Source of the DNA: Chlorobaculum tepidum TLS | GTDB taxonomy: Bacteria; Bacteroidota; Chlorobiia; Chlorobiales; Chlorobiaceae | Reading direction: 5' to 3' | NCBI RefSeq assembly: GCF_000006985.1 | Contig: NC_002932.3 | Span: 1,351,109-1,415,108, forward strand | DNA: 64,000 nt | Shown here: in pieces, positions 1,363 through 52,957 of the stretch | Position numbering within the stretch: the first letter of the stretch is position 1 | Layout of the letters: each line of letters starts with the position of its first letter | Program-made: the position numbers and the translations under genes | The notes under the pieces: model-generated | What the model was told of the DNA's origin: nothing | Databases searched by the model: none | Seen by the model: only the letters and a program-made list of their open reading frames with translations

Positions 1363-3199
<1,837 letters not shown>

Positions 3200-3213
3200 A
3201 TCGGGGTTCTTCA

Positions 3214-3248
3214 CTTATAAGTCCTATACGACCTATAGGACTTATAAG
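3214..3248. repeat. 15-bp perfect inverted repeat after thiC
   Basis: CTTATAAGTCCTATA (3214-3228) and TATAGGACTTATAAG (3234-3248) form a perfect 15-bp hairpin with a 5-base loop. It has no T-run, so it is not a good intrinsic terminator. A related string, CTTATGGGACTTATGAGA, occurs after the gap terminator at 36827, so this may be one copy of a short intergenic repeat family. Confidence 0.8.
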
Positions 3249-3532
3249 ACCTTAGTCGCACAATTTATTGTGGCTATCAACGATTTTGCCGATTGGGCCA
3301 GTTCGCATAGAAGTGCATTGTCGGGTTCGGGCTCGGGAGGAGATTCGAAAGAATGGATAGCCGCGAGGGCTACCCCTACAGCAGGTACAGGTTTTGGCGG
3401 TTTTGACAATTATATCAGGTCGCCGTTGCGAGTGCAAATCGTTACGAAATACGCACCGCCTTTTGAATAATCATAGTCGGCCAACCGAATCGAACGTCGA
3501 TGATGTTTTTGATGATCGTAGTTCATAGTGGA
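3249..3532. other. Gene-free stretch between thiC and the attC cassette
   Basis: No convincing gene is visible. A 66-codon frame at 3270-3470 (MAINDFADWASSHRSA onwards) is open but has no ribosome site and no family I recognise, so I do not call it. The stretch belongs to the insert between the two thiC 3' ends. Confidence 0.4.
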
Positions 3533-3590
3533 TCATAACGTTTGCATTAAGCCGCGCTGCGAAGCGGCGTCGGCTTAAATGAATTGTTAG
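3533..3590 (-). mobile_element. Integron attC recombination site (59-base element)
   Basis: Read on the reverse strand from 3590, the site begins CTAACAATTCATTTAAGCC and ends GCAAACGTTATGA. The two halves fold back: TTAAGCC...GCGCT pairs with AGCGCGGCTTAA around a TTCGC-type loop, leaving the unpaired bases typical of folded attC. The outer CTAAC and GTTATG cores are the simple-site ends (consensus RYYYAAC and GTTRRRY, each with one departure). The layout and inner sequence closely resemble the classical short attC sites behind resistance cassettes. The TAA stop of the neighbouring gene lies inside the CTAAC core, as is common in cassettes. Confidence 0.88.
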
Positions 3591-4564
3591 CCCTTGACCG
3601 TGTAGTGCTTGTCCAACACGTTGAACACGGCATTGCTAAACCACGCCTGCTTGGCACTCTTCGGATTGTCGGGATCAAGCTTCTTGACATGGCAATACCG
3701 CTTGTCTGACTTCAGGGGCTTGCGCAGATCGTGATACTTCTGGTTCTGCTTGAAATCGAAATAGCGAGCTGAGCATGCTTTGGTAAGCGCAGCATAGTTG
3801 AGCGGATACTTATCTTTCAGGTGCTCTTCAGTGAGCTGAACTTTAGGAGCACTTGGGTCGTTCGTGACCTGAACCTTGATCGCATCATCCGCTTTTGACT
3901 TTAGGAACTTGAGCTCTACGTTTACAGAAACCGCATAGTCCGCCTCGGGGTCACCTGCCGCTTCGAGCGATGAGATAAATGTTGCAACATTTTTCTCCTC
4001 TTTGCTCAGAATGATTGCATCGCCTGGCTGTTGAGGATTAACGAATGCCAGGGGCATCAAATAGAAGTTGTACTGTGAAAAGTCGATGTCGAACCATGAC
4101 TGCGCAGCCTTCGCATAGTTCCTAACCGAGGCACTTCCGACCTCTTGGAGCCGCACGGCGAACACTCCGCTTTTGTTGTAGAAATGGACTGATGAGTCTC
4201 TGATCTCGCAGAGCGCGATGATGTTCTTGTGAGCAGCATCAGCTAGCGTCTTCTTCTCAGCCATCCTTTTTGCCAAGTAATCTAGGCTGTGCGTGAGGGG
4301 ATTTCCTGCACCCGTCATCTTGACCTTGGCATGCTTGTACGGTTTTCCGTTTGGTCGCAGTTTCTTCTCTGTGACGTAAAGCATACGAACTTTGTTCCCG
4401 TTGTCCTTAAGCCATTTTGCCTTTAGGAGTAGCTCCCAGGCATTGATAGCTAGAATCGAGAAGGTTTCCTCTCGGTATTTGAAGTCGGGCTTGTTGTAGA
4501 CCTCAATCGCCGAAACCATTGCGGAGACGCTCTTTTCCACCAGTTCTTGCGACCGAGCTTTCAT
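3587..4564 (-). CDS. DUF3644-type protein (cassette-borne, putative defence function)
   Basis: The product has 325 residues. Near residue 35 it has SILAINAWELLLKAKWL, which I recognise as the start of the DUF3644 domain; the preceding EETF and later DSSVHFYNKSGVF segment fit the same family. There is no signal peptide or membrane segment, and the charged lysine-rich C-terminus looks soluble or nucleic-acid associated. The biochemical function is unknown; related proteins often sit in defence-type islands, so a defence role is inference. Codon use is more AT-rich than thiC or tpiA, which fits acquisition. The stop codon TAA falls in the attC core. Cassette genes normally lack their own promoter, so expression may depend on neighbouring transcription. 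Confidence 0.8.
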   Translation of the reverse strand: MKARSQELVEKSVSAMVSAIEVYNKPDFKYREETFSILAINAWELLLKAKWLKDNGNKVRMLYVTEKKLRPNGKPYKHAKVKMTGAGNPLTHSLDYLAKRMAEKKTLADAAHKNIIALCEIRDSSVHFYNKSGVFAVRLQEVGSASVRNYAKAAQSWFDIDFSQYNFYLMPLAFVNPQQPGDAIILSKEEKNVATFISSLEAAGDPEADYAVSVNVELKFLKSKADDAIKVQVTNDPSAPKVQLTEEHLKDKYPLNYAALTKACSARYFDFKQNQKYHDLRKPLKSDKRYCHVKKLDPDNPKSAKQAWFSNAVFNVLDKHYTVKG

Positions 4565-4833
4565 TGAGGGCTAAAAATACTTATATGGTTCCGTCTAAAA
4601 AACTTGATACTTGATTTGTGTCAGCATAAGCCGCCAGCCTGCCGCAGTCATAAAATCCGATAAAACATTTTAATTCAACGCCTTACATCCATAACCGAAT
4701 TTTATGCTGCCGCGTTATACGGATTAGCAGAACACTCACCTGTTCAAACGCGACCGACCAATCAACGCTCATTCTCAAAAAAAATTTACCGCAAATCCAC
4801 CCACAAAACCAACCCCCATCACTACCCTGCTTT
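4565..4833. other. Upstream part of the cassette insert, with a long inverted repeat
   Basis: No gene is seen. CAGCATAA (4622-4629) and TTATGCTG (4702-4709) form an inverted repeat 72 bases apart. On the reverse strand a TATAAC...GGTTATGG pair lies at 4716-4689, possibly a degenerate recombination core marking the cassette start. The promoter of the DUF3644 gene, if any, would be here. Confidence 0.4.
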
Positions 4834-4930
4834 CACCGGCGACACCGCCGCCACCGCAAAGTATTGCACCATGTGCGGCCCCGACTTCTGCTCGATGAAA
4901 AGGTCACAGGAAACCGCCGCTGGGGCATAA
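4834..4930 (+). pseudogene. Detached 3' end of thiC (duplicate)
   Basis: Bases 4834-4914 match 3100-3180 of thiC at 79 of 81 positions. In frame they encode [22 protein letters not shown], including all three cluster cysteines. The copy ends QETAAGA-stop, whereas the intact gene ends QETTAAGL-stop, so the tails diverge after the shared block. It has no start and cannot be a gene. It shows that the 1.7 kb between the copies entered at, or recombined through, the thiC 3' end, probably with DNA from a related strain. Confidence 0.92.
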
Positions 4931-5055: not shown

Positions 5056-5808
5056 TTACCCCGCCGCCTCGACAATCGCCATGAAGTCGTCGGCATTGAG
5101 GCTCGCGCCACCAATCAGGCCACCGTCGATATCCGGCATGGCGAAAAGCTCCGCAGCGTTAGAGGGTTTGACGCTGCCGCCGTACTGGATCCTGAGATGG
5201 TCCGCCGCTTTCTGACCGTAGAGTTCGGTGACTTTCGCCCGAATCAGCGCGTGAACCTCCTGCGCCTGCTCTTTGGTGGCGGTTTTGCCGGTGCCGATTG
5301 CCCATACCGGTTCGTAGGCAATCACCAGCTTGCTGATGTCGGTAACATCAATCAGCCCCTCAACCACTTGGGCAGTGACGATCTGACCCGTCACGCCGCG
5401 CTCGCGCTCGTCGAGCGTCTCACCAACGCAGAGGATGACGCTCAACCCTTCAGCCAACGCCTTTTTGACCTTGAGGTTGACCGTGGCATTGGTTTCGCCG
5501 AACAGTTGACGGCGCTCCGAGTGCCCGAGGATAACATAGCTGCATCCGGCAGCGGCAAGCATCCGCGTGGAGACCTCGCCGGTGAATGGGCCATCACTCT
5601 CGTAATGACAGTTCTGAGCGCAGAGCCTGATTCCGCTCCACTCGATCACCTTGCAAACCTCGTACAACGCCGGAAATGTGGGGGCGATGCCCACTTCACA
5701 CTGCACACCGTCAGCTCCGACCTTCTCGGCAATCGCAGTTGCCAGATCGACAGACTCGGCGATGGTGTTGTTCATCTTCCAGTTGCCCACCACAATTTTT
5801 CTGCGCAT
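5056..5808 (-). CDS. tpiA: Triosephosphate isomerase
   Basis: This enzyme interconverts dihydroxyacetone phosphate and glyceraldehyde 3-phosphate in the cytoplasm. The 250-residue length is standard. Lys11 in GNWKMN, the electrophile His96 in VILGHSERR and the base Glu166 in [14 protein letters not shown] are all present, as is the phosphate-binding GGSV near residue 212. It starts one base after the stop of the 74-residue gene upstream and ends at a strong terminator, so it closes a transcription unit with that gene and probably greA. In a green sulfur bacterium it serves gluconeogenic sugar synthesis from reverse-TCA-cycle products. Confidence 0.98.
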
Positions 5809-52723: not shown

Positions 52724-52957
52724 GACTGACACCCCTTTACAAGACATGATAATGGGCAGAAACAGCTCGCCTGAGTCAATGCAGACACTATTGAAAGGAA
52801 ACGGAAAGAAGGTCGCCGGAAGCCGGGAAGAGACATATTTTACTTTACTTATTAATATTTATTCTTTAAATTTGTTTCAAGTTGTTATAACAGGAAGCAA
52901 CCCAGTGTTTTTCCTGAAAATACATTTTAAAACGCCACCAGAAAAAGGAGAATCATT

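Follow-up and report, generated by a model that had tools for sequence, protein, structure and literature searches.

An integron is usually described as an integrase gene (intI) together with its attI site, and an integron cassette starts with bases complementary to the R'' box. Integrons of the Chlorobi and CALINs, the latter reported from two attC sites upward, are both known from published surveys (PMC2426708, PMC9024848), and according to IntegronFinder 2.0 little has been described of attI sites other than those of class 1 (PMC9024848). The attC type discussed below is almost confined to the Xanthomonadales, with Thermomonas and Lysobacter among the genera (PMC8352920), and the DUF3644 family has been assigned to the HEPN superfamily, proteins of which were already tied to integron cassettes (PMC3710099). 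In the window, by which is meant the whole 64,000-nt stretch of DNA that was analysed, a DUF3644 gene lies between thiC (1529-3199, +) and tpiA (5056-5808, -) in a host genome of 2,154,946 bp on one contig. Its attC, the attI homology of the adjoining sequence, the exact junctions, the variety of cassettes at one locus in related genomes and the lack of a full-length intI in the host together suggest, with a probability of about 0.7, that an integron integrase (IntI) inserted the cassette at an attI-derived site beside tpiA that has no intI, that the site descends from an integron and that its resident cassettes have been replaced repeatedly. The features of the locus are collected in Table 1.

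Table 1. Features of the thiC-tpiA region, in positions of the window; a slash marks the crossover here and in the text
Feature	Position	Strand	Remarks
thiC 3' end, one repeat copy	3100..3191	+	flanking repeat
RAYT gene and flank remnant, cassette to thiC	3199..3538	-	82-85% identity to G009, G010 and G020
Truncated RAYT/IS200-like transposase gene, 38 aa left	3410..3526	-	intact in sister genomes
attC, Xanthomonadales/Thermomonas type	3533..3592	-	covariance model, 63 bits
Integron gene cassette, 1036 bp (predicted)	3539..4574	-	TTAGCCC (4574) to ...AAACG (3539); G/TT crossovers
DUF3644 (HEPN-type) gene, 325 aa	3587..4564	-	PF12358, PADLOC PDC-S19
Conserved ~260-bp block with attI-like site	4575..4833	-	far end: few codons of FGE-sulfatase gene tail
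attI-like site	4576..4733	-	attI profile, 22.6 bits, E = 2.9e-6 in 64 kb
Second thiC 3' end copy	4834..4925	+	92% identical to 3100-3191

Judged by its sequence features, the DUF3644 cassette is a genuine integron cassette with a real attC. A covariance model trained on attC sites from Thermomonas haemolytica (15) and G010 (one), with the site of the window left out, matched positions 3533-3592 (-) with 63 bits; E is 5.6e-12 genome-wide and 5.7e-13 within 0.22 Mb. This match bears out the attC that the initial annotation had placed after the gene. The model was restricted to one attC type because a MAFFT alignment of mixed types was not structure-correct, and a regular-expression scan requiring strong R''/R' pairing proved too strict for array sites. 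The 33-nt core of the Thermomonas attC has one match in the window (2 mismatches; 0 in 100 shuffles), and the core pattern gave 46 matches in T. haemolytica, at near-identical sites, with 0 for the reversed control. The site itself, GGGCTAACAATTCATTTAAGCCGACGCCGCTTCGCAGCGCGGCTTAATGCAAACG/TTATG, has R'' and R' boxes and folds into a hairpin with an extrahelical base (z = -2.6 to -2.8) at the 3' end of the cassette, as is expected of an integron cassette, and the TAA stop of the gene lies inside the R'' box (CTAAC). Both the foldback arms and the stop codon in the attC core had been noted in the initial annotation.

The 5' edge of the cassette, TTAGCCC at 4574, is complementary to R'' (GGGCTAAC) over 8 of 8 nt when the expected preceding crossover G is included; the base that precedes the edge is a T here, mutated relative to the sister genomes, and the 3' end of the cassette is the G at 3539. 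Because of this complementarity the cassette is delimited to 3539-4574, and the stretch up to 4695 is attI-like and lies outside it. An extent of 3533-4695 for a single cassette, as proposed in the initial annotation, was rejected by the junction comparison, its 5' limit lying ~120 bp too far upstream. The protein is 88% identical in amino acids to that of T. haemolytica and 80% to that of Lysobacter, and the gene is 80% identical in DNA to Thermomonas across 988 bp. Taken with the attC type, these nearest homologues point to a cassette of Xanthomonadales type.

The encoded protein matches PF12358 (E = 6e-53) and PADLOC PDC-S19 (E = 4.5e-137), a candidate defence family, in line with the earlier idea of a putatively defensive gene on a cassette; the cassette is of foreign type. 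E120, R122 and H127 are invariant in 26 of 26 DUF3644 homologues and give an R-x4-H motif. The predicted structure is mostly helical at moderate confidence (pLDDT 76). R122 and H127 agree with the R-x4-6-H pattern, and the helical model with the all-helical domain, of HEPN proteins, and the top PDB matches of the model were mostly HEPN proteins, all with E above 0.1. Going by motif and family, a HEPN ribonuclease with a role in phage defence or stress is the likeliest product. An attC-like structure lies directly downstream of 8 of 45 DUF3644 homologues, as against 3 of ~90 control windows; the association with cassettes is therefore recurrent in the family.

Where no attI had been reported in the window, an attI-like site directly adjoins the cassette. 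The profile that detected it represents 12 sites 3' of intI in Chlorobiaceae, cut at the crossover (175 positions); in these intI-bearing genomes the stop codon of intI is closely followed on its 3' side by attI, the end of which reads ...TCTAAATATTG/TT. Positions 4733-4576 (-) are the sole credible match in the 64-kb window (the next has E = 6), with a score that 0 of 400 shuffles reached. The profile also matches 9 of 9 blocks of the genus (E = 1.5e-11 to 1e-3, 3 of the 9 being weak matches at 1e-5 to 1e-3), and the real scores were equalled by 0 of 2,000 dinucleotide shuffles of five blocks. Three block alignments extend to profile positions 172-174 of 175 and thus end at the crossover, the attI side of which reads AGTATTT/TT in the window as against AACACTG/TT in relatives. 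The conserved block is best read as a diverged attI, with clear but distant homology to the attI of those family integrons that have intI.

Of 71 Chlorobiaceae genomes, 9 have the block, and without exception they belong to the genus group of the window. It occurs on the tpiA side in seven Chlorobaculum-group genomes (that of the window, G001, G005, G009, G010, G015 and G020). Read from tpiA, the order in G009, G010 and G020 is the ~260-bp block, G/TT, a gene, attC, G/TTATGAT, an RAYT gene and thiC; the block ends CATATAAACACTG in these genomes and gives way abruptly at G/TT to a gene specific to each, and the attC of G020 is truncated, without R''. The copies in G001, G005 and G015 also adjoin tpiA. 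Two more, one in G011 and one on a separate contig of G009, come immediately behind an FGE-sulfatase gene, and in G016 the pieces have been separated by rearrangement. The tpiA-side cassettes encode DUF3644 in the window, an FRG-domain protein matching PADLOC PDC-S15 in G009, a DUF4238 protein in G001 and unclassified proteins in G005, G010, G015 and G020, and the eight cassette proteins compared (seven tpiA-side and that of G011) show no similarity between any pair. The left flank, CATATAAAYACTG/, is found in 7 of 9 blocks, with the window and G011 diverged, and the right flank, CG/TTATGAT, in 9 of 9 copies. In the eight cassettes with R'' parsed by script, the cassette start matches R'' at a minimum of 6 of 8 nt, and an R'' read by eye in G009_C39b (CCGCCTAAC) matches over 9 nt. 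The sister genome G002 lacks the block and its site is empty, so the history requires losses or horizontal spread. On the thiC tree, genomes with and without the module are intermingled, and the block-bearing G001 and G010 genomes are incomplete. A search for an empty attI-RAYT junction returned occupied sites and unrelated matches only.

The second copy of the thiC 3' end is continuous with the tpiA side, as at the empty site of G002, and with the first forms a 92-bp direct repeat around the insert; mutual recombination would restore an empty site of the G002 type. The RAYT gene starts 12 nt (11 in one copy) past the attC crossover at seven loci (L123, L124, L125, L128, L151, L158 and L161), and at all loci examined this RAYT subfamily is placed like a cassette gene without an attC of its own. 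An intact sister RAYT shows a weak match to Pfam Y1_Tnp (PF01797, E = 6.7e-4, below the gathering score), and nothing relevant on RAYT with integrons was found in the open-access literature. The palindrome AAGTCCTATA...TATAGGACTT near thiC was considered as an RAYT-type repeat and rejected, as it has a single exact copy in the genome. Rfam additionally places a TPP riboswitch at 1359-1465, 5' of thiC, and an Lnt RNA motif at 52859-52916.

As the initial annotation had stated, no intI match exists at the locus. Besides Xer-like recombinases, the sole intI-specific match in the host genome is an 86-aa fragment ~134 kb away. The locus is accordingly neither a complete integron, in which intI adjoins attI, nor a CALIN, which takes at least two attC sites without intI and here would have one. 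The fragment, C-terminal and intI-like, belongs to a fossil integron (G000:C1, ~1488.5-1491 kb; L001 and L010 10518-12950), in which three or more small cassettes with long attC-like sites come after it; the attI profile gave no significant match on this fossil integron, and the fragment ends unlike the intI genes behind the profile. Two further loci in the host genome have sites that resemble attC. At G000:C1:1644387-1644445 (L233; 26.9 bits, E = 0.012), two head-to-head attC-like sites surround an inverted repeat (GTTAGGCGCCATCCATGAA), one of them coming after a helicase/restriction-like gene, and at G000:C1:1094069-1094127 (L234; 25 bits, E = 0.036) an attC-like site follows a restriction/helicase-like gene beside a mutY-like gene.

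A full-length intI above the family cut-off was found in 9 of 61 Chlorobiaceae genomes searched. With integrons common in the family and an intI fragment in the host, there is nothing strange as such in the capture of a cassette by a green sulfur bacterium, although it had been called unexpected. The unusual part is the conserved attI without an integrase, rather than the capture, and the open-access literature yielded no report of an attI conserved in the absence of intI. G005 alone among the tpiA-side genomes has a full-length intI at another place, the rest having Xer-like or other tyrosine recombinases and, in the window genome, the fragment; since G005 keeps this gene, the absence of an integrase does not apply to every block-bearing genome. 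In G073 (L108) an FGE-sulfatase gene lies directly upstream of an intI-like frame, an order that is possibly ancestral for the FGE-attI loci. In G009 and G011 the attI-like block comes straight after the FGE gene, tails of which are also present in the tpiA-side copies; a protein search for the FGE tail in the host genome gave no match.

These observations are most simply explained by an ancestral Chlorobiaceae integron arranged as FGE gene, intI, attI and cassettes, which would have lost intI once, between FGE and attI, prior to the diversification of its cassettes. As the FGE-attI junction is common to the copies, the loss of intI probably predates the divergence of the cassettes, and after such an early loss later cassettes would have required IntI in trans or import via homologous recombination. 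A module of FGE tail, attI, cassette and RAYT would have been relocated between tpiA and thiC in some Chlorobaculum genomes, where an integron integrase would have inserted the DUF3644 cassette, with its Thermomonas-type attC, at the attI-derived site. IntI could have acted in trans, encoded by a mobile element or a different integron, homologous recombination via the conserved flanks (attI block and RAYT) may carry cassettes between strains, and the resident cassette of the tpiA-side site would have been replaced repeatedly. The copy in the host genome is probably frozen, because its crossover is mutated (G to T), its RAYT gene is truncated and only a fragment of intI is left. Of the initial proposal of capture outside a normal integron platform, the part that stands is the absence of a local integrase; the site is not random but conserved, attI-like and reused in sister genomes.

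An alternative history, in which a complete integron decayed at this place, would have had intI adjacent until recently, lost in each lineage separately, with the cassettes captured in cis. The position of attI directly 3' of intI in Chlorobiaceae integrons and the intI fragment elsewhere in the host genome are in its favor, but the junction of FGE tail and attI-like sequence occupies the expected position of intI in all blocks, and 0 of 9 copies hold an intI remnant. The shared junction and the missing remnants favor a single old loss and make recent decay unlikely. Homologous recombination may also have been the sole means of exchange after a few ancient insertions by IntI. The attI block and RAYT flanks are 80-90% identical over several hundred bp between species, and the interspersed distribution of the module on the thiC tree agrees with such transfer; each distinct cassette would nonetheless still need an IntI insertion at exactly this crossover, and exchange by recombination only is considered improbable.

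The chance is equally slight that a single cassette entered a non-specific secondary (attG) site with a conserved flank unrelated to attI. Lone cassettes without intI are known, and single-attC clusters are hidden by default in IntegronFinder 2.0 owing to false positives (PMC9024848), but seven genomes have different cassettes at the same crossover, up to which the flank follows the attI profile. It should also be considered whether the RAYT/IS200-like transposase, instead of IntI, targets attC-like hairpins and assembles the pieces. Enzymes of the IS200 type work on single-stranded hairpins, and at all loci examined the RAYT gene stands at its 12-nt distance from an attC, or what is left of one, that differs from locus to locus. 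A transposase, however, would not produce the two hallmarks of IntI seen here, an attI-like junction on the left and a cassette start that matches R'', which leaves this reading extremely improbable. Insertion by IntI at an attI-derived site continues to be the preferred reading.

Should this reading be correct, a docking site can outlive its integrase and be reused with an enzyme from elsewhere, and the block would be a natural system for studying the action of IntI in trans. With attI unmodelled outside class 1 and single-attC elements hidden by default, sites of this kind would escape standard software (PMC9024848). Two PADLOC candidate defence families (PDC-S19 and PDC-S15) among the cassettes mean that the tpiA-side site may be a small exchange point for defence genes. 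A more general and tentative idea, for which the odds are somewhat below even, is that Chlorobaculum has 'attI outposts', integrase-less attI sites that moved with RAYT to new places in the chromosome; if real, these would be kept, and integrases in trans would load them with a single defence or accessory cassette at any one time.

The closest known systems are the chromosomal integrons of the Chlorobiaceae (for example L091-L104 and L188 of G005), with which the locus shares a homologous attI, the G/TT crossover and the strand and side of the cassettes. Unlike in those integrons, the tail of an FGE-sulfatase gene stands here in place of intI, and a single cassette (two at one locus) is followed by RAYT. 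The chromosomal integrons of the Xanthomonadales (Thermomonas, Lysobacter) have the same attC type and the closest DUF3644 homologues, but their cassettes form large arrays, whereas a single one is found in this Chlorobaculum-group genome. With the HEPN families DUF3644 and 'integron cassette HEPN' (PMC3710099) the gene, a candidate in defence, has the R-x4-H motif and the association with cassettes in common. Finally, the locus resembles the CALINs and single-attC elements of IntegronFinder in that a cassette with attC has no integrase nearby; CALINs, however, are defined without attI, whereas the locus has an attI-like site that is conserved and reused across several species.
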